Shown here: in pieces, positions 11,138-29,312 of the stretch | Position numbering within the stretch: position 1 is the first letter of the stretch | Layout of the letters: every line of letters starts with the position of its first letter | DNA from: Muribaculaceae bacterium | GTDB lineage: Bacteria; Bacteroidota; Bacteroidia; Bacteroidales; Muribaculaceae | DNA: 35,080 nt | Direction of reading: 5' to 3' | Assembly (NCBI GenBank): GCA_017454355.1 | Contig: JAFTDD010000098.1 | Location: forward strand, 1 to 35,080 | Made by a program: the position numbers and the translations under genes | The notes under the pieces: model-generated | What the model saw: only the letters and a program-made list of their open reading frames with translations | Databases searched by the model: none | What the model was told of the DNA's origin: nothing

Positions 11138-12010
11138 CTACTTTTTACGCTTTCTGTATATGATTAGAGAGGCGGCAATTAAAGTTGTTATAATTGCTAT
11201 AACAATAAGTGGCCATTTTGAACAATATACATTCTCAATATTTTTGACGTCCTTTTCGGAAGTCGGAGGAGTGTCCGGTAGGCCAAGCGCACGCCGTCTA
11301 ATCAATTCGATATCTATGGCCGTGTCAGCAATTATCGAATCTGTTGAGTTCTTCTTATAGTATCTCCGCTCAGCCTCATACCAGTCTGCTTTCGCATCAA
11401 TACAAAATAAATCAACTTTTTTTACATGATGATTCAAAATTAAAACACGGCAAAGATACCAATCAGAAAAGTCCCCGTCACAAAGTTGTATTGCTTCGTT
11501 TGATTTTAGCCCATTTATGATGGCAATATTCCAATCTTGTATTATTCTAAACTCAAAACTATTTAATAAATCACCAATTTGAGAAGAGATTTTATATTGA
11601 TTGATTAAATCTTCGGTTTTAGTTTTTTGATTGACAACATATTTTGAGAAGCCGCTTATACAGAACCCGTTCTTAGATGACCAAATATACGCAAGGTATG
11701 ATATGGTATTCCCTTTCTCATAAATAAAAATTGTATCGGATTTGAGATCTATTTCTAAAAGAGAATCAATCCCTGACAATAATTTATGGCGGAGTAGCAG
11801 GTCCGGCCTTTGTGGCGGGCCGCCAATGTTCTTATTGATTGTATCTGTTGTGATATTGCCTTGGTTGCTCTTCAAATAACCTTCCTGTGCTAGTTCAACT
11901 CTATGGCAAATCTCTTCGAACAAACTATAGTTCGAAGCAAAACCCACATTAACTTCAAAAGCAAATAAGCAGATTGTCAAAAAAACTCTGGTTTGATAGT
12001 TGGCTCTCAT
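11138..12010 (-). CDS. Array paralog 1: signal peptide plus C-terminal membrane anchor, immunity-like
   Basis: A 290-residue protein of unrecognised family. A signal peptide ends near VGFAS (about residue 26). The middle carries motifs shared with its three neighbours: SDTIFIYEKG, AYIWSSKNGF, IIQDWN, CRVLI and WYEAERRYY. A conserved RRRALGLPD box and a polar linker lead to a single membrane helix (WPLIVIAIITTLIAASLIIY) and a basic RKRKK end. The predicted topology is a periplasmic domain anchored in the inner membrane. Position downstream of a toxin-like Rhs gene suggests immunity or inhibitor function, but this is inference. The last 83 bases are almost identical to those of paralog 3. Confidence 0.75.
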   Translation of the reverse strand: MRANYQTRVFLTICLFAFEVNVGFASNYSLFEEICHRVELAQEGYLKSNQGNITTDTINKNIGGPPQRPDLLLRHKLLSGIDSLLEIDLKSDTIFIYEKGNTISYLAYIWSSKNGFCISGFSKYVVNQKTKTEDLINQYKISSQIGDLLNSFEFRIIQDWNIAIINGLKSNEAIQLCDGDFSDWYLCRVLILNHHVKKVDLFCIDAKADWYEAERRYYKKNSTDSIIADTAIDIELIRRRALGLPDTPPTSEKDVKNIENVYCSKWPLIVIAIITTLIAASLIIYRKRKK

Positions 12011-12140
12011 ATAATAGTGAATTGAGTTTTTACCACAATTTAATAACTCTGTTATTCAGTCTTATATTGTATGGATATGATAATGAAATTGCTTAAAACC
12101 GGTATGGGGGTCGTCAAGATGAACCACATGTTGTTGGCGT

Positions 12141-12995
12141 CTACTTTTTACGCTTTATGTATATGATTACAGAGGCGGCGATTAAAGTTGTTATAATTGC
12201 TATAACAATAAGTGGCCATTTTGAGATGTTGCCTTTCTCGGGATCTTTGTTGTCCTTTTCGGAAGTCTGAGGATTGTCCGGTAGACCAAGCGCGCGCCTC
12301 CGTATCACATCGGTATCAAAACCTGTGTCAGTCTGTGCTGTATCACAAACACGATTCATGTGTTTGTATTTCTCATAGGCATCGCCCCAATCTATTGGAG
12401 GTGTGTAAGTTGTTGTTTCAACCGATAATATTTTCCCATTGTCAATAACAACTCGATTTACATAACAAGTTGATAAATATTCGCTACAGTGGTAGTCGAC
12501 TTTCTCAAGGTTTTGGATAAAAGTAGTGTCCCAGGATTCTATTATGCTTCTGAATTTGGATTCATTTGCCGAATCATCTACCTTATTAACTGAATACTTT
12601 GGAGAACTTGGGTCGTCATAATTGTAGGTAGACTCGATAAGAAAAGATTTTTCTTTATTCCAAACAAGTGCTTCGTATATTTCTGAATTTGATTGATGAA
12701 TATATAAAGTATCTCTCCTCGAGAAATGAAACCAATCAATGACTCCAATATCGCTTAATACCTCGAAGAAATAATCTGGAGTAGGGTTTGCTATCGTGTC
12801 TGATTGATAGACTCCGTCATCTGTTGTATATCCGATTTCAACAAAAGGACGGCTCTTAAGTTGGCTTTCCTTAATAGATAACAATATTCTATTAGAAAGA
12901 GGCTTCTCTCCACTATGAGAAACGGCACTTGCCAAAAAAGAATGTTCTGAACAAATTACGAGCAGAGCGAGTATGTATTTGAAATATCTTATCAT
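12141..12995 (-). CDS. Array paralog 2: signal peptide plus C-terminal membrane anchor, immunity-like
   Basis: A 284-residue relative of the flanking genes. A signal peptide ends near residue 24 (FLASAVS). Shared motifs are RDTLYIHQS, ALVWNKEKSF, SIIESWDTTF, NRVVI and DWGDAYEKY. RRRALGLPDNPQTSEKDNKD then precedes the same membrane helix and KRKK tail. The N-terminal half is strongly diverged from paralogs 1 and 3, while the C-terminal 60 residues are nearly the same. It is AT-rich relative to the housekeeping genes nearby. Its role is unknown; context suggests one of a set of immunity-like proteins. Confidence 0.75.
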   Translation of the reverse strand: MIRYFKYILALLVICSEHSFLASAVSHSGEKPLSNRILLSIKESQLKSRPFVEIGYTTDDGVYQSDTIANPTPDYFFEVLSDIGVIDWFHFSRRDTLYIHQSNSEIYEALVWNKEKSFLIESTYNYDDPSSPKYSVNKVDDSANESKFRSIIESWDTTFIQNLEKVDYHCSEYLSTCYVNRVVIDNGKILSVETTTYTPPIDWGDAYEKYKHMNRVCDTAQTDTGFDTDVIRRRALGLPDNPQTSEKDNKDPEKGNISKWPLIVIAIITTLIAASVIIYIKRKK

Positions 12996-13060
12996 TGTTT
13001 AATCAACGCAATCATTATCAAATATATCATCACGGTAGGGTTCATAGATGTTGTTGTCAT

Positions 13061-13894
13061 CTACTTTTTACGCTTTCTGTATATGATTAGAGAGGCGGCA
13101 ATTAAAGTTGTTATAATTGCTATAACAATAAATGGCCATTTTGAGAAGTTGTCATTCTTGGGATCTTTGTTGTCCTTTTCGGAAGTCTGAAGATTGTCCG
13201 GTAGACCAAGCGCGCGCCTGTTTATTGCTTCAATATCTACATCTTTACCTTTGTCTGTTGTAATTGAGTTTGAATCCGACTTTCCGTAATAACGCCGTTC
13301 TGCCTCCTCCCAATCTGCGTTTGGAACGATGCTGATGCAAGACACATTTTTTACTTGTGACCTTTTAATAATAACCCGGCAAAGGAAATGTGACGCAACA
13401 TCAAAATCGCAACTCCCTTTATTAATTGTAAGATGATGCATTAGTTCTAAATTCCATGATTTGATTGTTCTGAACATTGAAGTCCGGTATTGACCGGGTG
13501 AAATGGATTTTATTAGATAGTTATGCCTTTCAACAACTTGTTTGTCGCAAATAACGTTATCGTTGTATTCACGTTGTGGGAAAATCATAAACCCATTATA
13601 AGAGTTCCAAATATAACAACTTAGTGCGTTCTCATAAATGAACAGAGTATCGGAATTGTAATTTAACTTTAAGCGAGAGTCAATGTGGGACTCCATTCTA
13701 TATCGTTTGAATATAGACGGTAATGTATCGGCATACTCAACAAAACCTGTGTGTGTAGACATATATTTTTTTTCACTAATATAAACCATAGACCAGATTT
13801 TACTGAATACGTCTTGATTAGAGGCAAATGTATAATTAAATGTGTTTAATTCAAAAAATAGAATTAACGCAACGAGACGTTGTAAATAATACAT
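13061..13894 (-). CDS. Array paralog 3: signal peptide plus C-terminal membrane anchor, immunity-like
   Basis: A 277-residue member of the array. A signal peptide spans about 1-25 (ending YTFAS). Common motifs are NSDTLFIYEN, CYIWNSYNGF, TIKSWNLELM, LCRVII and DWEEAERRYYGKS. The NRRALGLPD box, linker, membrane helix and RKRKK end follow. Downstream of its stop there is a short copy of a signal-peptide start that breaks off before paralog 2 begins. This suggests that the array grew by tandem duplication with deletion. No named family is recognised. Confidence 0.75.
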   Translation of the reverse strand: MYYLQRLVALILFFELNTFNYTFASNQDVFSKIWSMVYISEKKYMSTHTGFVEYADTLPSIFKRYRMESHIDSRLKLNYNSDTLFIYENALSCYIWNSYNGFMIFPQREYNDNVICDKQVVERHNYLIKSISPGQYRTSMFRTIKSWNLELMHHLTINKGSCDFDVASHFLCRVIIKRSQVKNVSCISIVPNADWEEAERRYYGKSDSNSITTDKGKDVDIEAINRRALGLPDNLQTSEKDNKDPKNDNFSKWPFIVIAIITTLIAASLIIYRKRKK

Positions 13895-14517: not shown

Positions 14518-15459
14518 CTAAGGATTTAACATTAATTTTTGTTTCTTTTCCCAATAAGCACGTATATATGGGAATCTCATATTGATGGGATATTCAGGGG
14601 CCGGAATTCTACTAGTTTCAATTGGGAAAGAATAGTAAGAAGAATAGTATGCCCTATTTGGTATTTTATGCTCCTTACGAATAACATTCTCAACTTGGCA
14701 TGCGTAAATCTCGGCTTTTGGCACACTTCTTCCATCCGGCATGATAAACCACAAATTATTATCTTCGGTTCCGAGCCATTTGTCAATTATATGGGCGAAT
14801 TCGTGCGCCAAGCCTATAAAGGCCGGGCGATAAGAATCGTAGCCTTCACGCGGATAGTAAGTTAACCCGGCTCGGTTTCGTGTCGGATCCCATCTTACGG
14901 TATTATTGTTTGTGTCGGCTTCATTTCCGAGAGGGTCGCCATTTTCATCTAGTTTTACATACTCGACATCAACATATTGCCTTGAGTCGGCCAGAAAATC
15001 AACAAGAGCACAGCCAACAGGCCCCATGCGTAGTTGCTCCAGTGCCGCGGTCAGTTGGTTAATATAGTCGTTATAGTCATCGCTATGATATAAGTTTCCG
15101 CCCTTGTCATAGAATCCATAGGAGCCATCCAACCCCATTTTGAAGTAGTAGGCAACACCATTCATATAGGTGCGGATGATGTTGCCGGAGGGGTCGATGT
15201 AGCGCACGGGGTTGCCGCCGCACCATGCGTAGGGGCTGATGCCGTAATATCTCTCGCATTGGGTATCCATGGTGGGTGTGGAACCAATCAACGGGTCATA
15301 CATTCTCGCCTCGTTGTCCACCCAGTCCAGCCCGTTCATGCGGTCCAACTCCTTGCCGCCGTATTTGCGCGGCTGCACTCCAGTCGCTGCCGTTCTGTTA
15401 TTCATAAAAACGAGAATACCAGTAAGAAAGATTGTCTTCGCCATACGGGCTATTGACAA
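14518..15459 (-). CDS. Orphan Rhs/YD-repeat core fused to an M91-like metalloprotease tip
   Basis: A 313-residue frame. Residues 30-92 are the end of an Rhs-type repeat core (YGGKELDRMNGLDW, then ARMYDP, then YYGISPYAWCGGNPVRYIDP), which in full-length toxins marks the junction to the variable toxic tip. The tip contains LAHEFAHIIDKW with an HEFAH zinc motif (H219, E220, H223) and a later acidic region, VENVIRKEHKIPNR, that resembles M91/NleD-like effector tips. The long Rhs shell and delivery domains are missing, and the first 25 residues are not Rhs-like, so this is an orphan tip or a decayed toxin. Weakly Rhs-like codons continue upstream in another frame at 15431-15523. It leads the array of four paralogs. 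Confidence 0.7.
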   Translation of the reverse strand: MSIARMAKTIFLTGILVFMNNRTAATGVQPRKYGGKELDRMNGLDWVDNEARMYDPLIGSTPTMDTQCERYYGISPYAWCGGNPVRYIDPSGNIIRTYMNGVAYYFKMGLDGSYGFYDKGGNLYHSDDYNDYINQLTAALEQLRMGPVGCALVDFLADSRQYVDVEYVKLDENGDPLGNEADTNNNTVRWDPTRNRAGLTYYPREGYDSYRPAFIGLAHEFAHIIDKWLGTEDNNLWFIMPDGRSVPKAEIYACQVENVIRKEHKIPNRAYYSSYYSFPIETSRIPAPEYPINMRFPYIRAYWEKKQKLMLNP

Positions 15460-21908: not shown

Positions 21909-22178
21909 ATGAAAAATAAAGCAAACAACGAGGAACTCCAGTCGCGCCGACAGTTCTTCAAGCGCGCGGCCAAGGGCGTCCTCCCCATCCTGGGAGCCGT
22001 GGTGCTGAGCTCTATGCCGTTAATCTCCAACGCGACCGAGAGTTGTAATTGCTACGGAACCTGCTATGGAACCTGCTACGGTGGGTGTCAAGGGTCGTGC
22101 GGTACGACCTGCTCCGGCAAGTGCATTGGATCTTGCAGCGGTACATGCCAAACATCATGCTATCGAGCTAACCGCTAA
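21909..22178 (+). CDS. CXXX-repeat peptide precursor 1 with Tat signal
   Basis: An 89-residue precursor. Residues 12-20 are a twin-arginine motif (SRRQFFKRA), followed by a hydrophobic stretch and a probable signal peptidase I site after SNA (about residue 42). The C-terminal core has 11 cysteines at 46, 48, 52, 56, 60, 64, 68, 72, 76, 80 and 84, so from C48 every fourth residue is Cys with Gly, Ser, Thr and Tyr between. This is the pattern of CXXX-repeat radical SAM target peptides. It heads a same-strand cluster with two more precursors, modification enzymes and tatAC. The structured RNA ends 48 bases upstream, and I see no separate promoter in that gap. Confidence 0.88.
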   Translation: MKNKANNEELQSRRQFFKRAAKGVLPILGAVVLSSMPLISNATESCNCYGTCYGTCYGGCQGSCGTTCSGKCIGSCSGTCQTSCYRANR

Positions 22179-22183
22179 GGCAA

Positions 22184-22223
22184 GGCTGGAGAGGATATAA
22201 TAAGATGTATATCCTCTCCGGCC
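22184..22223 (+). other. Intercistronic hairpin between precursors 1 and 2
   Basis: Bases 22184-22199 (GGCTGGAGAGGATATA) pair with 22208-22223 over 16 positions with one G-T wobble; the loop is eight bases. Only AATTAT follows, not a T-run. It may stabilise the upstream precursor message, or partially terminate to give more precursor 1 than downstream enzymes. Confidence 0.65.
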
Positions 22224-22252
22224 AATTATATGCTACTAACAATTATTGAAAA

Positions 22253-22501
22253 ATGAAACAGAAATGTAACAACGAAGGACTTCAGTCGCGCCGACAGTTC
22301 TTCAAGCGCGCCGCCAATCGCGTCCTTTCCTTTCTCGGAGCCGCACTGCTGTCCTCGATGCCGTTGATTTCAAACGCAGCCGAGAGTTGTAATTGCAACG
22401 GAACCTGCTATGGAACCTGCTATGGTGGGTGTCAAGTAGGTTGTGCTTCGTGCTGCTATGGCAATTGCGGCGGTACTTGTGAAGCTGCATGCAAGAATTA
22501 A
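22253..22501 (+). CDS. CXXX-repeat peptide precursor 2 with Tat signal
   Basis: An 82-residue paralog of precursor 1 with nearly the same leader (LQSRRQFFKRAA, then SSMPLISNA before the core). Core cysteines are at 46, 48, 52, 56, 60, 64, 67, 68, 72, 76 and 80. There are again 11, but one is shifted to give an adjacent pair at 67-68 that breaks the strict CXXX phase. One extra Cys is in the leader (C5). The leader identity suggests recognition by the same enzymes, and the divergence lies in the core. Gene duplication is evident from shared nucleotide blocks. Confidence 0.87.
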   Translation: MKQKCNNEGLQSRRQFFKRAANRVLSFLGAALLSSMPLISNAAESCNCNGTCYGTCYGGCQVGCASCCYGNCGGTCEAACKN

Positions 22502-22538
22502 TTCTATCGTTCTAACAACCAAGCAAAATAATAATCAA

Positions 22539-22973
22539 ATGAAAAAAACAATTCTACTTTTATTACTGTTGAGCGTTGGTTTTTGTGTCAATGCCAAACA
22601 ACCTTATACACTGCGATTTCAACAAAGAGATTGGCATCTTTGGTTTACTTTTGATCAGCCCAAAGATGGAGAGCAGACCCCTGGATGGGATATTGTTGTT
22701 TTCTTTGATGGAAACGACAATCCATACTATTATCAAGAAGAACTTGATGGGAAAAAGACAAGTATTAGACGTAATTATGGCGAACTTTCGTATCTTAGAA
22801 GCAAAGATGGAATTGATTATTACCAAGTCAGCATGCCATTTGAAATGTACAAACTAACTTTGGGCATTCACAAAAATAGAAAGCAGGTTACACTCATAGG
22901 AGAAGAAGATATGTCAGCAGTGCTAGGACAAGGCGAAAAAAGTGTTTCCATTGTAAATGGCTATCGTGATTAA
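22539..22973 (+). CDS. Unknown secreted protein inside the peptide cluster
   Basis: A 144-residue protein from the ATG at 22539, which starts a standard Sec signal peptide (MKKTILLLLLLSVGFCVNA). The mature part is beta-rich with many aromatic residues (FQQRDWHLWFTFDQP, WDIVVFFDG, NPYYYQEELDG) and has no cysteine. The frame is open further upstream, but that part overlaps precursor 2 and is not Tat- or Sec-like. Base composition is AT-rich compared with the flanking enzyme genes, so it may be a later insertion. I recognise no family. Position suggests an exported partner, carrier or self-protection factor for the peptides. Confidence 0.7.
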   Translation: MKKTILLLLLLSVGFCVNAKQPYTLRFQQRDWHLWFTFDQPKDGEQTPGWDIVVFFDGNDNPYYYQEELDGKKTSIRRNYGELSYLRSKDGIDYYQVSMPFEMYKLTLGIHKNRKQVTLIGEEDMSAVLGQGEKSVSIVNGYRD

Positions 22974-23098
22974 ATAACCCTTTTCCTATTCACTGTGAGT
23001 ACTGATATTCTCTCACGCCGAAAATTGCTCTTCGTTGTGCAAGTTTTTTGCACCAATTGTGATAACAGATGTACAAACTAATTAAAAGTCATTAATTT

Positions 23099-23410
23099 AT
23101 GAAAAATGAAATTCAATCGAGACGAGACTTCTTCAGGAGGGCGACAAAGTTGGTTCTCCCTATGATTGGGCTCACGATGATGTCTCCTATCATTGCTGCC
23201 TGTGGTGGGGATGAGCCTTCTGATGGCTCCTCGGGAGGAAGTTCCAAGGGTTGCTCTGGTTGTGCAAGTACTTGCACAACCGCTTGCGGTTTTAGCTGTA
23301 AGGCCAATGCTTCATGGAAACCGGCCTCATGCAAGACCGGCTGCAAAAGCGCATGCCTGTCAAGCTGCAAAACATCCTGCTATTCCTCGTGTAAGTATGG
23401 CAGCAAGTAA
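23099..23410 (+). CDS. CXXX-repeat peptide precursor 3, Tat signal with lipobox
   Basis: A 103-residue precursor with a twin-arginine motif (SRRDFFRRA, residues 7-15) and hydrophobic region ending IIAAC at residue 35, which fits a lipobox. It may therefore be a Tat-exported lipoprotein, unlike precursors 1 and 2. A Gly/Ser-rich spacer (37-51) leads to a core with 11 cysteines at 52, 55, 59, 63, 67, 78, 82, 86, 90, 94 and 98. This makes two CXXX blocks separated by a ten-residue spacer. Lys and Ser dominate between the later cysteines. It lies 38 bases before the radical SAM gene. Confidence 0.87.
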   Translation: MKNEIQSRRDFFRRATKLVLPMIGLTMMSPIIAACGGDEPSDGSSGGSSKGCSGCASTCTTACGFSCKANASWKPASCKTGCKSACLSSCKTSCYSSCKYGSK

Positions 23411-23448
23411 GTCATTGTTACTAATTGTTATTCGTATTATTATATTGT

Positions 23449-24687
23449 ATGCCCAAATCATCAGAGAAGGATCTAATTTATAAAAGCAGTGGCGATTGGC
23501 AGTCGGGGATGGCGAAGAACATCACGTTTATCGTCACGAAGGACTGCCAGCTGGCCTGCAAGTATTGCTATTTGGTCGGGAAGAACGAGAAGGAGCGGAT
23601 GTCGTGGCCTGTGGCCAAGGCGGCCATCGACTATATCCTCGACAACGAGGATAAGTTCCGCGAGCAGAGTGTCGTGTGGGACTTTATCGGTGGCGAGCCA
23701 TTCCTCGAAATCGAGCTGATTGACCGCATCTGCGACTATATCAAGGCTGAAATGTTCCGCCGCAACCATCACTGGTTTGATAGCTACCGCTTCTCGTTCT
23801 CGACCAACGGCATCAACTACCACACCGACAAGGTGCAGCAGTTCATCAAAAAGAACCATAGCCACCTCTCCATCGGCATCACCATCGATGGCACGCGGCT
23901 GAAGCATGACCTGAACCGCATATACAAGGGCGACGGTCCGGAACGCGGCAGCTATGACGATGTGGCGCGCAACATCCCGTTGTGGCTCGAGCAGTTCCCC
24001 GGTGGCGGCACCAAGGTGACCATCAGCAGCCCAGACATCCCTTACATCAATGAGAGCGTACTGCACCTCTACGGCCTGGGAATTCACGAGGTAAACATCA
24101 ACTGTGTGTTTGAGGACGTGTGGAAAGAGGGCGATGATAAACTGTTTGAGGACCAGTTGATGCAGCTGGCCGACGCCATCATTGACGGCGGCTACTACAC
24201 CGACTATGCCTGCTCGTTCTATAGCGAGAACATCGGCAAGCCACTAGACCCTGTGACGGAGAACCAGAACTGGTGCGGCGCGGGCAAGATGCTCAGCGTA
24301 GATGCCGCCGGCAATTTCTATCCGTGTACGCGCTTCGCGGCCTACTCACTGCGCAGCAAGCGTCCAATCATCATCGGCAACGTGCGTGACGGCATTGACG
24401 AGAACAAGCTGCGGCCGTTCCTTATGCTCGATCGACTGACACAGAGTCCGCCACAGTGCCTCGACTGCGAGGTGGCCAGCGGCTGCGCGTGGTGTCAGGG
24501 CGAGAACTACGACGCAGCGGCGACCCCCACCATCTTTCAGCGCGCCACGGCCATCTGCCTGATGCACAAGGCCCGCGTCAGAGCCAACAATTACTATTGG
24601 AACCGCCTATACCGCAAGCTCGAGCTGGAAGGTGAGCGCGAGCAATTTGAGAGCAATCACAGCGAAGTCAAACCCGATAACTGTTGA
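23449..24687 (+). CDS. Radical SAM/SPASM peptide maturase, CXXX-repeat type
   Basis: A 412-residue cytoplasmic enzyme. The ATG at 23449 (MPKSSEKD) is preferred over 23425. The radical SAM cluster motif is CQLACKYC (C33, C37, C40), with GGEP at 81-84. A C-terminal SPASM-like domain supplies C276, C293, C337, C340, C346, C349 and C370 for auxiliary iron-sulfur clusters. Such enzymes install thioether, carbon-carbon or similar crosslinks in ribosomal peptides. The architecture and neighbours match what NCBIfam calls radical SAM peptide maturase, CXXX-repeat target family; I could not confirm this by search. It follows three Cys-rich precursors and is seven bases ahead of the next gene, so it is probably translated with it. 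Confidence 0.9.
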   Translation: MPKSSEKDLIYKSSGDWQSGMAKNITFIVTKDCQLACKYCYLVGKNEKERMSWPVAKAAIDYILDNEDKFREQSVVWDFIGGEPFLEIELIDRICDYIKAEMFRRNHHWFDSYRFSFSTNGINYHTDKVQQFIKKNHSHLSIGITIDGTRLKHDLNRIYKGDGPERGSYDDVARNIPLWLEQFPGGGTKVTISSPDIPYINESVLHLYGLGIHEVNINCVFEDVWKEGDDKLFEDQLMQLADAIIDGGYYTDYACSFYSENIGKPLDPVTENQNWCGAGKMLSVDAAGNFYPCTRFAAYSLRSKRPIIIGNVRDGIDENKLRPFLMLDRLTQSPPQCLDCEVASGCAWCQGENYDAAATPTIFQRATAICLMHKARVRANNYYWNRLYRKLELEGEREQFESNHSEVKPDNC

Positions 24688-24694
24688 AAACGCC

Positions 24695-25636
24695 ATGCTG
24701 CAATACCTTATTATTCTGCTCGACGGGCAGAGCACCTCGTTCTGCCACCATGATGTTCCGGCCGGTGACAACAAGCTAATCAAGCCGGACATGCTGCGAC
24801 GAGCCATTCGATTCGCGATGATTGAGAACCTGACGATACAGTTCGTCTATCCGGCCACCGATTTGCCCGAGGAACACAAACACCTCATCGAGAGCATCGA
24901 CCATAGTAAGATTATGCCGGCGACTTCACCGTTGGCGGCCGAGGCCGATGTGATTGTGTTGAACAAGTGGGAGCAGGTCGTCGCTGATTGGCTCAACAAG
25001 GAAGTCGCCTACGTGATGCGCACTCCGCTCTCTGCTCTGCTTGAACATGAGGAGACTTTGGTGAAAGCACTTGCGACAGGAGTACGATTTAACGTCGTGC
25101 TCACCGACGTCGAGACCATGAGAGATGCCGGCCTGGAGAGATACAAGGCGTTTCTTGAAGTGGTTGCCGACCGAATGGTGGATGCCTACAAACGCGGTGT
25201 CTCACCGCAGACCAATCTGCTCACCGACCGTTTGGTGCTTACCGAGATGAACAACTGCGGCTCGGGCGACGCATCGCTCACCCTGGCACCCGACGGCAAA
25301 TTCTACGTCTGTCCCGCGTTCTACAACGATGGCAGCGAGGCGGTGGGCGACCTTGACAAGGGCGTGAGCATCCCCAACGCGCAACTATACAAGCTGAAGT
25401 GTGCCCCCATCTGCCGCGAGTGTGAGGCCTGGCAATGCAAGCGCTGCGTGTGGCTAAACCGCCACCTCACGCTCGAGGTGAATACCCCTGGGCGGCAGCA
25501 ATGCGTCATGGCCCACCATGAGCGCAATGCCTCGCGACAGTTGCTGATGGCTGTGAGGCAGCACGGCTCGTTTCTGCCCGAGACGGACATACCCGAGATA
25601 GACTATATTGACCCGTTTGACAACATCAAGAAATAA
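24695..25636 (+). CDS. SPASM-domain peptide maturase lacking the radical SAM core motif
   Basis: A 313-residue protein from the ATG at 24695. The N-terminal 180 residues contain a single cysteine (C17) and no CX3CX2C motif, so it is not a canonical radical SAM enzyme. The C-terminal part carries C188, C206, C236, C240, C243, C248, C251 and C270, spaced much like the SPASM cysteines of the preceding enzyme. It resembles the CXXX repeat peptide maturase family of NCBIfam in context. A plausible role is as a partner subunit that holds iron-sulfur clusters or presents the peptide. Its stop overlaps the next start codon (TAATG). Confidence 0.78.
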   Translation: MLQYLIILLDGQSTSFCHHDVPAGDNKLIKPDMLRRAIRFAMIENLTIQFVYPATDLPEEHKHLIESIDHSKIMPATSPLAAEADVIVLNKWEQVVADWLNKEVAYVMRTPLSALLEHEETLVKALATGVRFNVVLTDVETMRDAGLERYKAFLEVVADRMVDAYKRGVSPQTNLLTDRLVLTEMNNCGSGDASLTLAPDGKFYVCPAFYNDGSEAVGDLDKGVSIPNAQLYKLKCAPICRECEAWQCKRCVWLNRHLTLEVNTPGRQQCVMAHHERNASRQLLMAVRQHGSFLPETDIPEIDYIDPFDNIKK

Positions 25637-25920
25637 TGCATATGGAGAAGAAAATTGTCGGGCAAGTCACGCCCGAGGAGAGAGACGAGATTCAGTCCCT
25701 GTTTGAGCGACGCAATGGCTTGAATGAGTTGGCAAAAATCGTGACGGCGGACAATGCCGAACTTTACGAGAAACTCGTTGCCGACATGGGCACCACCGCA
25801 ACAAAATTCCAGCAATGGTGGAACACGATGGCCGCCAAGTACAACTGGGAGGGCATCGATGGCGGTAACTGGGAGATAAACTTCGTGACTTGCGATATTC
25901 TGCTTGTCGCTAACGAATAA
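25636..25920 (+). CDS. CXXX-repeat peptide modification system small protein
   Basis: A 94-residue soluble protein, starting at an ATG that shares one base with the upstream stop; a second ATG is two codons in. It is mostly helical and charged, with KIVGQVTPEERDEIQSLFER near the start and WWNTMAAKYNWEGIDGGNWE in the middle. It fits the size and character of the small family NCBIfam names CXXX repeat peptide modification system protein, which I recall but could not check. It may bind the precursor leader or bridge the two enzymes. TatA begins 11 bases after its stop. Confidence 0.75.
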   Translation: MHMEKKIVGQVTPEERDEIQSLFERRNGLNELAKIVTADNAELYEKLVADMGTTATKFQQWWNTMAAKYNWEGIDGGNWEINFVTCDILLVANE

Positions 25921-25931
25921 GATTACACGCC

Positions 25932-26177
25932 ATGATACTGATGATGATAGGCACCACCGAACTGGTGCTGATTGCCGGCTTGGCATTGCTGCTATTCGGC
26001 GGCAAAAAATTGCCCGAACTGATGAAAGGCATGGGTCAAGGCGTGCGCAGTTTCAAAGAGGGTATGAACGCGCCGACCGAGCAGCCACAACCCGAGGAGG
26101 GGGAAGCCCCCGCCGAGCCTTCAGAAGATAGAGAGGCCGAGTTAAGTGATGAGCCAAAAGGTGATGGACAGCAGTGA
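25932..26177 (+). CDS. tatA: Twin-arginine translocase subunit TatA
   Basis: An 81-residue single-span membrane protein. A short N-terminus leads into TTELVLIAGLALLLFGGKKLPELMKG in two parts: a helix at about 8-22, then the FGGKKLPEL hinge and an amphipathic helix to about residue 45. An acidic tail follows. These are the hallmarks of TatA/TatE. It forms the pore-like part of the Tat system, which exports folded proteins. No TatB is present, so a minimal TatAC system is likely. The 3' end overlaps tatC by 29 bases. Confidence 0.93.
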   Translation: MILMMIGTTELVLIAGLALLLFGGKKLPELMKGMGQGVRSFKEGMNAPTEQPQPEEGEAPAEPSEDREAELSDEPKGDGQQ

Positions 26178-27000
26178 CGATACACTGCTTCCACAAGCGC
26201 ATCAAGAAGGCATGATGACGATGGGTGAGCATCTCGACGTGTTGCGCCGGATGCTCATCCGCATTGTCATTGTTGTCATAGTGCTTGCCACGGCGGTGTT
26301 TTGCTGCAAGGAGTGGACGTTCAAGATGTTGCTCGCGCCTGGCAGCAGTGATTTTGTCACCTACACCGCCATTGAGCGGCTGTGTCGTGTTATCGGTTGG
26401 AAATTTCATTTCGAGCCGTTCCGCTTGACACTCATCAACACAGAACTATCCAGCCAATTCATAACGCACCTCACCACGTCAATCTATCTGGGGCTATTGG
26501 GAGCCTCGCCGGTGGTGATTGTTGAACTCATGCGTTTTATCATGCCGGCGCTCTATGACAACGAGCGACGCTATAGCTATGTGGTGGCGACGGCCGTTTA
26601 TGGACTTTTTGTCGCCGGAGTGCTGATGAGCTACTATATCTTGTTCCCATTTGCGTGCCGCTTCCTTGGCACCTATCAGGTGGACGAGAGCGTGCTCAAT
26701 CAAATCAATGTCGGAAGTTACATCTCGACGTTCACCACACTCACGTTTATGATGGGCATCGTTTTTCAGATACCCGTCATAGCGTTTGTCTTGGGAAAAA
26801 TGGGTGTGATTGATGCTGAACTGATGACGCGCTATCGCCGTCACGCCGCGCTGCTAGTGATGACCGTCGCGGCCATCATCACACCGCCTGACTTGATGAC
26901 GCTCATACTGGTGGCAGCGCCGATGTACGGCCTATACGAGCTCAGCGTCGTTATCGTGCGCCGCGTGTCACCTACTCCTGAAGATTTAATAGATACTTAA
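26149..27000 (+). CDS. tatC: Twin-arginine translocase subunit TatC
   Basis: A 283-residue polytopic membrane protein. The conserved start of the family is seen as MTMGEHLDVLRRMLIRIV (about 24-41), and six membrane segments follow. PVVIVELMRFIMPALYDNER and the late TPPDLMTLILVAAPMYGLYE segment are typical of TatC. TatC recognises the twin-arginine signal. The ATG at 26149 is used; a GTG precedes it, and Met6 is an alternative. Its position at the end of the peptide cluster, with three Tat-signal peptides upstream, suggests that it serves them, though it could also be the cell's general Tat system. Confidence 0.95.
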   Translation: MSQKVMDSSDDTLLPQAHQEGMMTMGEHLDVLRRMLIRIVIVVIVLATAVFCCKEWTFKMLLAPGSSDFVTYTAIERLCRVIGWKFHFEPFRLTLINTELSSQFITHLTTSIYLGLLGASPVVIVELMRFIMPALYDNERRYSYVVATAVYGLFVAGVLMSYYILFPFACRFLGTYQVDESVLNQINVGSYISTFTTLTFMMGIVFQIPVIAFVLGKMGVIDAELMTRYRRHAALLVMTVAAIITPPDLMTLILVAAPMYGLYELSVVIVRRVSPTPEDLIDT

Positions 27001-27006
27001 GTTACA

Positions 27007-27459
27007 CTATAAACTCAGGTATTTATTGACAAATTCTAAAGGAGAAAGAATTTCAATAGAGGATTGGTCGGCTTGGAAATAATCACGCAGGTTAATTGTA
27101 ACGAGAACTTCACATTTGTTTTGTAATGCGCACTGATATTGCAAGCTGTCTTCAACATCGTCAAATGCCACATCGGAGATACCAGTTACTATATGCTTCT
27201 TGTTAAGGTCGCCTACCCTCACAAGCGACAAAGTTGTGGATAACGCATCACGCAATTTCTCGGTCTGCTCAGGACGATGTATATTTTGACGCTTCAGCCC
27301 CATTCTGATTATGTACGTCAATGTGTAGATACAACCAACAGAAACAATAGCAGTCAACTTCCCTTCCTCAATAGCGGAGAGAATTCTGCTGACCGCCAAA
27401 TATTCTCGACGTTGCTCAAAATATTCCAGAAAAATATTTGTATCCAAAAATACTTTCAT
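27007..27459 (-). CDS. PIN-domain toxin (VapC-like)
   Basis: A 150-residue PIN-domain protein. It starts MKVFLDTNIFLEYF with the first acidic ligand D6, and has later acidic residues in FDDVEDSLQYQCA and a C-terminal VTINLRDYF. PIN proteins are magnesium-dependent ribonucleases, and paired ones act as toxins that cleave tRNA or rRNA. Its ATG overlaps the stop codon of the upstream antitoxin-like gene (ATGA at 27456-27459). The 3' end lies only six bases from the convergent tatC end. Confidence 0.85.
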   Translation of the reverse strand: MKVFLDTNIFLEYFEQRREYLAVSRILSAIEEGKLTAIVSVGCIYTLTYIIRMGLKRQNIHRPEQTEKLRDALSTTLSLVRVGDLNKKHIVTGISDVAFDDVEDSLQYQCALQNKCEVLVTINLRDYFQADQSSIEILSPLEFVNKYLSL

Positions 27460-27710
27460 TGCTGAGGTTCAGAAACAAGATTATATTTTTCGGTAATATA
27501 CTCTTCTATCAAATGCTCAGCATCTGAATGTGAGGATAGAATTCCGCAGAGGCTCTCATGCCGGTAATGTCGTTTAGGCGTTTTGACCGGATGCGCGGGA
27601 ACGTCCATTGAGACAAGACGCTGTGCGTATGCGGTTAATTGTTCTTGCAGCAAATCCAAACTATAGGATTGCGGAACAGTGACATGAATATTGATAACTG
27701 CTGTTGCCAT
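27456..27710 (-). CDS. Antitoxin-like partner of the PIN toxin
   Basis: An 84-residue protein upstream of, and overlapping by four bases, the PIN toxin gene. The N-terminus (MATAVINIHVTVPQSYSLDLLQEQL) could form a small DNA-binding or dimerisation fold. The C-terminus (SHSDAEHLIEEYITEKYNL) is helical and acidic, as in toxin-binding tails. The family is not recognised with certainty, and the assignment rests mainly on position. Its promoter lies at the edge of the adjacent IS element. Confidence 0.72.
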   Translation of the reverse strand: MATAVINIHVTVPQSYSLDLLQEQLTAYAQRLVSMDVPAHPVKTPKRHYRHESLCGILSSHSDAEHLIEEYITEKYNLVSEPQQ

Positions 27711-27794: not shown

Positions 27795-27873
27795 ATCGGT
27801 ATAGGTCTTGCGTAATTCGCTAGAAATGAGTAATTTTGTGGTGAATTATAAACTGTAACTCCCCTATACCGAT
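27795..27873 (+). promoter_or_regulatory. Inverted repeat that would hide the transposase start in read-through RNA
   Basis: ATCGGTATAGG (27795-27805) is perfectly complementary to CCTATACCGAT (27863-27873), which covers the ATG at 27872. The transposase promoter (CTTG at 27807-27810, TAATTTTG at 27831-27838) lies between the arms, so only transcripts entering from outside contain both. Confidence 0.6.
27807..27838 (+). promoter_or_regulatory. Predicted transposase promoter
   Basis: CTTG and TAATTTTG are 20 bases apart. Transcription would start near 27845, giving a leader of about 27 bases that lacks the left arm of the flanking inverted repeat. Confidence 0.6.
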
Positions 27874-29312
27874 GAGCAAAATTACAACATTTCTTTCAGA
27901 CATGCAAGAGTTCTTCAGCGGAAACAGCGAAAACGCAGCAACACAGTCCATCTGCAATTCCCTTGCCAGTGTTCGCATGAGCGAGCGGCACACGCTTGAC
28001 GTGGAGAGCCGTCCGAACCAGGTCTATCGCCTTCTGGACGTGTTCCATTGTCTGCTGATGTGTCCGTTCTTTCTCGTGAAGAATGTGTCCGCTTTGGCGG
28101 CCTCGCCCCTGCATGACCTGATGGCGGCTTGCAAGGATGTATTCTACCGCTTTATGGAACGTTCTGACATTGACTGGCGTAAAGCGTTGTGGAACATCAC
28201 CCTGCAGATGTGGAACCGGATTTGCGTTCGCAGCGAGCACAACCTTGACGAGACCTGCCTGATAGTTGACGACACCGACCTTGACAAGACAGGGCACCGC
28301 ATTGAGCGTGTAGGCCGTGTGCATTCCCACCTGCTGCACAAGTCCGTGTTGGGCTTCAAGATGCTGTCGATGGCAGTTACGGATGGTTTCTCGCAGATGC
28401 TTCTGGATTTCGCCCTGCTCGGAGAGAAAGGCAAGAACGGCAAATACGGGATGAGCGACAAGGAACTGTCCCGTCGTCGCCAGCCAAAAAGAGCCGAGAA
28501 CTCATGTCACAGCCAGAGAGAGGCCGAGTATGACAAGAGCAAGATTGCACTTGTTATTGAGATGGTCAAGCGCGCCATCTACAAAAAGGTCAGATTCTCA
28601 TACCTGCTTGCCGACAGTTGGTTCGCATGCAAGGAACTGATACGGTTCATCCACACCCGGCGCGTCAAGTGTCATTTCCTGGGCATGATTAAGGTGGGCG
28701 AGCATGGCAGAACCAAATATGACGTGGGCGGGACGGCTCTTACCGCCGCCGCTGGTGGTCAAGCAGGGTAAAAAGCGCATGAAATATAGCAGACGGCACA
28801 GATGCCACTACATGGTCTATGACGCGGAATTCGGCGGCGTGCCGGTGAGGATATTCCTGGTCAGGCGGACAAGACACGGGCAGTGGAACGGACTCATCAC
28901 GACCAACACGCGACTTGAATTTCTGGACGCATGGAGAATCTACTCCAAACGTTGGACAATTGAAGTTGTCTTCAAGGACTGCAAACAGCATCTTATGCTC
29001 GGAAAATGCCAAAGTACGAATTTCGCCACACAGATCGCGGCAACGTCAATCTGTGCAATTCAATTCAACCTGCTATCCATGGCGAAAAGATTCATGGACT
29101 ACGAGACCATCGGCGGTCTTTTCAGGGAAATCTCGAAAGAGACACTCAAACAGTCTGTCGCACAACAACTTTGGGGCAAAGTTCAAGAAATGCTCACCGC
29201 TGTTGCTGAGGTTTGTGGGCTCGCCGATGAGGATCTCTATGATATCATCATCAATAAGACTGAACAAGTGGAGAACATGTTCGCCACTTTCAATCTAAAA
29301 CGTGCATGTTGA
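27872..29312 (+). pseudogene. IS4-family DDE transposase, frameshifted
   Basis: Two overlapping frames make one transposase of about 475 residues. The first (27872-28771) has the first catalytic Asp in IVDDTDLDKTG and the second in LLADSWFACKEL. The second (joining before 28770, ending 29312) has the catalytic Glu region, WTIEVVFKDCKQHLMLGKCQ, similar to the Y-R-E-K signature of IS4. The switch occurs near a GCC-repeat run around 28743-28755, where frame one ends in TALTAAAGG and frame two continues as LVVKQGKKRMKYS. No slippery heptamer is evident, so mutation is more likely than programmed frameshifting. Confidence 0.85.

Follow-up and report, generated by a model that had tools for sequence, protein, structure and literature searches.

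Radical S-adenosylmethionine (SAM) enzymes that cross-link a peptide in the cytoplasm ahead of its export are known from the qhp operon (QhpC/QhpD/QhpE/QhpF), where, according to the available part of the source, QhpD makes thioethers and the protease QhpE cuts the cross-linked peptide before it is exported via the ATP-binding cassette (ABC) pump QhpF (PMC7876137). Among bacterial precursors of ribosomally synthesized and post-translationally modified peptides (RiPPs), Sec signal peptides are rare, and some mechanism must prevent export ahead of modification, as stated in the portion of a survey available (PMC12452194). The locus analyzed here, at positions 21909-27000 of a 35,080-nucleotide stretch of Muribaculaceae DNA (contig JAFTDD010000098.1; the window, meaning the whole of this stretch), belongs to the CXXX-repeat system of NCBIfam (TIGR04114, TIGR04115, TIGR04116, TIGR04117, TIGR04119), its maturase, maturase partner, small protein and first precursor all scoring over the cut-offs. 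The scheme proposed for it shares with qhp a cytoplasmic radical SAM thioether cross-linking followed by export; the export part differs, the qhp operon relying on an ABC exporter and a protease and the window carrying the twin-arginine translocation (Tat) genes tatA and tatC. Judged from its genes and their relatives, it is quite probably a signal-peptide RiPP system with a Tat channel of its own.

Other described systems resemble the locus in part. For the ranthipeptides (PapB, CteB) the likeness lies in the maturase, whose second-best family is PapB and whose sole match among solved structures at E ≤ 0.001 is the CteB-type 5wgg (E 2.7e-20); the maturase nevertheless falls under the PapB cut-off (187.9 bits vs 340) and the cores of the window are C-x3-C arrays, whereas PapB enzymes, which make thioethers, use substrates with C-x3-D. 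Bufferins and other MNIO-modified RiPPs likewise have Cys cores and, in place of a plain leader, a true signal peptide, but they depend on an MNIO enzyme and on Sec, and in the part of the text available 'twin-arginine' and 'tat' occur 0 times (PMC12452194). DAG-RiPPs are RiPPs made into lipoproteins, with Bacteroidota among their hosts, but here too the enzyme is an MNIO, and 'tat', 'twin-arginine' and 'radical SAM' occur 0 times in the available portion (PMC12636315). The CXXX protein families have thus been named already; among the matches listed from the open-licence literature, none was found to describe the system or its product or to link it to Tat, and 'twin-arginine', 'tat' and 'cxxx' occur 0 times in the accessible part of a study of RiPP mining in Bacteroidales (PMC10352776). 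Within the literature searched, the dedicated Tat coupling, an LP motif in the Tat signal and a swap of exporters, all described below, are new.

All genes of the locus lie on the + strand, in the order three precursor genes, radical SAM maturase, partner, small protein, tatA and tatC, with one further gene between the second and third precursors:

21909..22178, + strand: precursor 1, 89 amino acids; SRRQFFKRA...VLPILG Tat signal, SNA-T signal peptidase I-like site (by eye), C-x3-C core
22253..22501, + strand: precursor 2, 82 amino acids; SRRQFFKRA, VLSFLG (no Pro), C-x3-C core
22539..22973, + strand: predicted secreted small protein between precursors 2 and 3, probably outside the system
23099..23410, + strand: precursor 3, 103 amino acids; SRRDFFRRA...VLPMIG, lipobox-like IAAC then GGDE (by eye), C-x3-C core
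23449..24687, + strand: radical SAM/SPASM peptide maturase (TIGR04115)
24695..25636, + strand: maturase partner (TIGR04119, alignment, AlphaFold2)
25636..25920, + strand: small CXXX-system protein (TIGR04116, AlphaFold2)
25932..26177, + strand: tatA (TIGR01411, PF02416); ATG at 25944 equally possible
26146..27000, + strand: tatC of the CXXX-linked clade (TIGR00945, PF00902, tree); ATG at 26149 possible

The preliminary description of this DNA had named three twin-arginine (RR) peptides with Cys-rich cores, and these are present, with their signals as it read them. The radical SAM enzyme, the CXXX small protein, tatA and tatC that it listed are likewise all there and over NCBIfam cut-offs: the maturase matches TIGR04115 (624.7 bits vs cut-off 350), the small protein TIGR04116 (97.1 vs 50), TatA TIGR01411 (58.3 vs 53.9, with a match to PF02416 too) and TatC TIGR00945 (159.7 vs 132.7; PF00902, 199.1 bits). 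The genes from the maturase to tatC are tightly packed, as had been said: 7 bases separate the maturase stop from the partner ATG at 24695, the partner stop and the small-protein ATG share one base, and the start of tatC overlaps the end of tatA. The likelier maturase start is the ATG at 23449, although a TTG at 23425 opens the listed open reading frame (ORF). The remark that no ABC exporter is visible holds for relatives of the three CXXX-linked exporters used as queries, none of which was found in the window (tblastn, E ≤ 1). With the target-peptide model TIGR04117 precursor 1 passes (53.7 bits vs cut-off 50) and precursors 2 (43.8 bits) and 3 (30.8 bits) stay below; the window genome, 89% complete, has three TIGR04117 matches at E < 1, all at this locus. 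The protein encoded at 22539..22973 has no Pfam match at E ≤ 0.01, and tblastn against 100 related loci gave nothing at E ≤ 0.1.

All three precursors fit, by sequence, an S/T-R-R-x-F-F/L-K signal followed by a hydrophobic stretch and a cleavage or lipobox site. The Tat-signal model TIGR01409 gives precursor 1 a score of 12.7, under its cut-off of 16.7, and does not list precursors 2 and 3; the search is insensitive, the CXXX precursors that it lists scoring under its cut-off. The motif RRxF[FL] occurs in 140 of the 150 same-strand ORFs with C arrays that lie within 5.1 kb of 80 related maturases (eight other C-array ORFs, six on the other strand and two more than 5.1 kb away, had been excluded), and in five more RR is followed by different hydrophobic residues (RRxLF, RRLLI), which brings the RR total to 145/150; the five without RR are one chance ORF, one displaced frame, two leaderless ORFs and a short one. 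Among array-free control ORFs of 60-300 amino acids on both strands of the same loci the motif is found in 6/4,920, and two of these six are one decayed precursor in two near-identical loci. Chance occurrence of the RR motifs is ruled out by this control.

A set of 140 distinct leaders, analyzed position by position, had been picked for RR, so that the frequency of RR is uninformative there while LP and other positions are informative. Together with their ORFs they show the features expected of RiPPs, namely a precursor beside a modifying enzyme, conserved leaders and variable cores. Counted from the first Arg, position +13 is Pro in 95% and position +12 Leu in 85%, and [LIVM]P stands 7-9 residues past RRx[FL] in 138/140. 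The LP motif is missing from all six distinct non-CXXX Tat proteins of the same genomes, and in RR-less leaders, discussed below, KTLPG is kept at three loci (L183, L184, L185; L numbers denote loci and G numbers genomes) and not at three others (L180, L270, L277). Because it is near-constant in the RR leaders, absent from the other Tat proteins and kept in L183-L185, LP would appear to be among the features read by the maturase. In the case of bufferins, preliminary results indicate that the signal peptide belongs to the recognition sequence, according to the available part of PMC12452194.

That homologous clusters might mostly lack both RR signals and tatAC, as the preliminary description had allowed, was checked and is not the case. 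Besides the RR counts given above, there is the gene order: of the 64 loci whose downstream flank spans 4 kb or more, 51 have tatA and tatC immediately after the maturase (60/80 overall; of the 20 loci without tatAC, 7 have less than 2.5 kb downstream). The 80 loci are those retained by the contig scan from 348 related loci, all at least 75% identical and hence close kin. In the isolate Xylanibacter rarus 109 (L091) one contig carries the full set of RR precursor, maturase, partner, small protein and both tat genes. In the maturase tree, loci lacking linked tatAC are interspersed with loci that have it, a pattern such as repeated loss would give. Decaying CXXX loci were also encountered: L257 has a piece of the partner, the small protein, tatA and tatC and no maturase, L269 the small protein with broken tatA and tatC, and L268 an RR precursor and a fragment of tatC.

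The same association is seen among the genomes of the window's family, 30/198 of which have TIGR04115 at E ≤ 1e-80 (the maturase and TatC surveys are taken to cover the same 198 genomes, as the listed handles agree; the maturases of L095/G632 and L108/G711 are identical, so the locus set and the genome set overlap). TatC is found in all 30 maturase-positive genomes, in 27 of them at the locus, vs 140/168 negative genomes (Fisher 0.0098), and at least two TatC are found in 19/30 positive vs 4/168 negative genomes (Fisher 2.6e-15, not corrected for kinship). The four negatives with at least two TatC comprise two with CXXX remnants (G668, G675), one whose CXXX locus is truncated at the end of a contig (G654) and one with two housekeeping types (G674). 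In 8/30 positives (G647, G655, G666, G672, G711, G725, G751, G756) the linked TatC is the only one found, these single-TatC genomes being drafts, 83-99% complete, and seven of the eight have no Tat signal over the TIGR01409 cut-off, by that insensitive test. Outside the family the system is sparse (over cut-off in 6/198 genomes of the order and 6/395 of the phylum, the window's own in each), and linked tatAC is present in 4/10 positive genomes there (G173, G055, G151, G039).

In a tree of 103 TatC rows, one clade (SH-aLRT 96) holds 49/53 linked TatC together with one row from a remnant locus; the tree used 53 of the 81 linked rows, every second locus of the genome-contig set being omitted and identical rows merged. 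This clade, which includes the window TatC, stands apart from the housekeeping TatC of positive and negative genomes alike. A second tatC of the window genome lies on contig C50, its neighbours being NADH dehydrogenase-like subunit genes (by eye). The idea that the linked tatAC is the ordinary housekeeping pair is ruled out by this second gene and by the TatC tree.

Where the precursors have no RR, the exporter is of another kind. In other families of the phylum the same maturase occurs with RR-less precursors (L180, L183, L184, L185), and beyond the phylum, where the view comprises one plasmid, phage records and IMG/VR contigs, the Anaerococcus prevotii plasmid locus L270 and the IMG/VR contig L277 each combine an ABC gene with a maturase fused to its partner and a short precursor of Cys repeats in which no RR is seen by eye. 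An ABC exporter is thus present in 6/6 RR-less loci, from about four lineages; no tatC match was found within 6 kb in L180, L183, L184 and L185, and no Tat match in L270 and L277. The other 96 loci of the same search yielded one ABC gene (L096), 5.9 kb away; the queries were three exporters from the RR-less loci themselves, and matches were taken at a bit score > 60 on the same strand within 6 kb, some flanks being shorter. As far as gene content goes, tatAC gives way to an ABC exporter where RR is absent. L180 is laid out like the qhp operon, since a QhpE-like protease (111 bits, under the cut-off of 165) stands beside its ABC exporter.

After TIGR04115 and PapB, the next families for the maturase are CcpM, the quinohemoprotein family (QhpD) and SCIFF, all under their cut-offs; for SCIFF maturases the thioether chemistry is taken from the family name. 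The partner passes TIGR04119 (207.4 bits vs cut-off 150), so the preliminary description was right as to its presence, but its label 'SPASM-only' has to be dropped: the AlphaFold2 prediction (pLDDT 91.0; best PDB match 5why, E 2.8e-10) shows a degenerate radical SAM fold over the full length; the protein lacks a CX3CX2C motif and has 8 Cys invariant across 53 aligned rows. The small protein is predicted (pLDDT 93.1) as a strand, two long helices and two strands, with no PDB match at E ≤ 0.001. A role for TIGR04116 as RiPP recognition element is unsupported by this helical hairpin with short strands and its want of a PDB match. Gene fusions join each pair of the three proteins, maturase with partner in L180, L270 and L277, partner with small protein in L181 and maturase with small protein in L274, and the three are therefore likely to form one complex.

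The cores in the ORFs of the 140 leaders are 34-277 residues long (median 64) and consist of 22% Cys, 16% Gly and 16% Ser; in 2,156/2,450 pairs, among the 15 commonest spacings, neighbouring Cys are exactly four apart. By pattern, 26/140 leaders have a lipobox, a few of them doubtful (28 with a looser rule). The six residues past the lipobox Cys are 44% Asp/Glu, vs 5% past the first Cys of the other leaders, and at least one acidic residue stands there in 25/26 lipobox leaders vs 30/114 others. Acidic patches behind the lipid Cys resemble the lipoprotein surface-export signal of Bacteroidetes, and the 26 Tat-lipoprotein-like leaders, 25 of them with acidic residues, suggest surface display. 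With its lipobox-like IAAC, followed by the acidic GGDE, precursor 3 may be a Tat lipoprotein. In L144 a 317-amino-acid ORF starting 961 bases before the maturase apparently has a CXXX array fused behind a longer domain, as a Tat lipoprotein-type precursor.

In the mechanism proposed for the locus, the leader would have two jobs: K-x-x-LP[IV]LG would be recognized by a maturase complex made up of the radical SAM enzyme, its degenerate radical SAM partner and the small protein, and SRRxFFK with the hydrophobic stretch would serve as Tat signal. In the cytoplasm the maturase would cross-link the C-x3-C core, most likely by Cys thioethers, and the folded core would then exit via the adjacent TatA and TatC, which form a paralogue distinct from the housekeeping Tat. 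Precursors 1 and 2 would be released by signal peptidase I, and precursors of the third type lipidated and probably displayed on the cell surface. Tat would be needed because the core is folded, and export would fail in a cell without TatC.

Several observations weigh against this scheme in its strict form. The Pro of the LP motif is absent from precursor 2 of the window itself. RR is kept without linked tatAC at 13/64 loci, and five RR genomes without it (G603, G628, G632, G236, G454) have TatC elsewhere, so the private Tat is dispensable. Four of the 53 linked TatC fall outside the clade (L154, L188, L142, L138; long branches for L154 and L138), and tatC may for this reason have been recruited more than once. 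Three of the six ABC cases (L183, L184, L185) are one family, and L270 adjoins a lanthipeptide cluster with its own ABC gene. G711, 83% complete, has two Tat proteins besides CXXX over the TIGR01409 cut-off. Finally, Tat also moves short unfolded peptides, and use of Tat is therefore no proof of a folded core.

Three other explanations were weighed against a dedicated Tat channel for cross-linked peptides. The cores could be metallothionein-like metal-binding domains, the maturase making some other or minor modification and Tat exporting the metal-loaded folded peptide; their Cys-, Gly- and Ser-rich composition would suit this, and bufferins, which are also signal-peptide RiPPs, bind copper according to the available part of PMC12452194, but the conserved maturase scores near the thioether-making PapB, QhpD and SCIFF families and CteB, and we consider the explanation unlikely. 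That the linked tatAC serves as a second, general-purpose Tat system and merely happens to lie beside the cluster, with CXXX peptides not its main cargo, would agree with the 13/64 loci that manage without it and with G711, where only the linked TatC was found alongside the two other Tat proteins. It agrees less well with the seven linked-TatC-only genomes that lack a Tat signal over the rather insensitive TIGR01409 cut-off, with remnant loci in which parts of partner, small protein, tatA and tatC survive side by side, and with the six RR-less loci without a tatAC match, and is distinctly improbable. Were the peptides instead to cross by Sec, with a decorative RR and modification uncoupled from export, the signal peptidase I-like and lipobox sites would follow just as they do in Sec signals; RR in 145/150 C-array ORFs together with linked tatAC, and TatC in 40/40 maturase-positive genomes when 28/198 family genomes have none at E ≤ 1e-15, leave this very little probability.

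Related maturases also occur in phages. In IMG/VR, C-x3-C array ORFs were found in 30/61 loci with a related maturase, 35 ORFs in all and none with RR; two maturases among L274-L334 were scored, and both are of the TIGR04115 type (L288, 654 bits; L274, 465 bits). The array proteins reach up to 57 C-x3-C units (for example L288:6247-9233), and tail fibre, minor tail or baseplate families lie nearby in 8/8 contigs (L288, L279, L282, L289, L291, L299, L319, L332) that had been picked for arrays and long flanks; in a further scan of these contigs one of 10 proteins had no match. The phage arrays are possibly cross-linked tail parts. In a broader and rather doubtful proposal, prompted by these adjoining tail genes, the arrays would be building material, not signal or toxin: a C-x3-C array would become a continuous ladder with a cross-link every four residues, a stiff, protease-proof rod displayed on the cell's exterior; being rigid already, it would leave by Tat or ABC and never by Sec, with the Tat signal doubling as recognition leader, while phages would use maturases of the same kind and the same arrays for tail parts, lysis replacing export, so that the arrays would be a general cross-linked building material with interchangeable release routes (Tat, ABC, lysis). 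At L288:12748-14025 a reverse transcriptase (PHROG 1423) lies beside the tail module with CXXX arrays, possibly a diversity-generating element. An unverified 'Bacteriophage sp.' record from human faeces (L272, MT837480.1) has an RR precursor, maturase, partner, small protein, tatA and tatC.

In a stretch of about 36% GC elsewhere in the window (14518-15459 and 11138-13894, both genes regions on the - strand), a Peptidase_M91 effector match (51.9 bits) falls in what looks by eye like the C-terminal end of an RHS-like protein; three tandem proteins follow, related by eye and without Pfam matches, that are possibly immunity proteins. Directly past tatC, at 27007-27710 (- strand), a small gene precedes one for a PIN-domain protein (PF13470, 53.5 bits), the two being probably a toxin-antitoxin pair, and a transposase in two overlapping frames (27872-29312, + strand; DDE_5 and DDE_Tnp_1 matches) is probably a disrupted insertion sequence.

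In the CXXX-Tat loci, Tat and signal peptidase would stand in for the protease and ABC pump of a qhp-type system. A Tat signal, which serves folded cargo, would naturally solve the problem of premature export, and in these loci the cluster brings its own channel. Species in which this is the only Tat channel detected would offer a clean system in which to ask what Tat checks, and the swap of tatAC for an ABC exporter inside one maturase family makes the link between signal and exporter directly testable.

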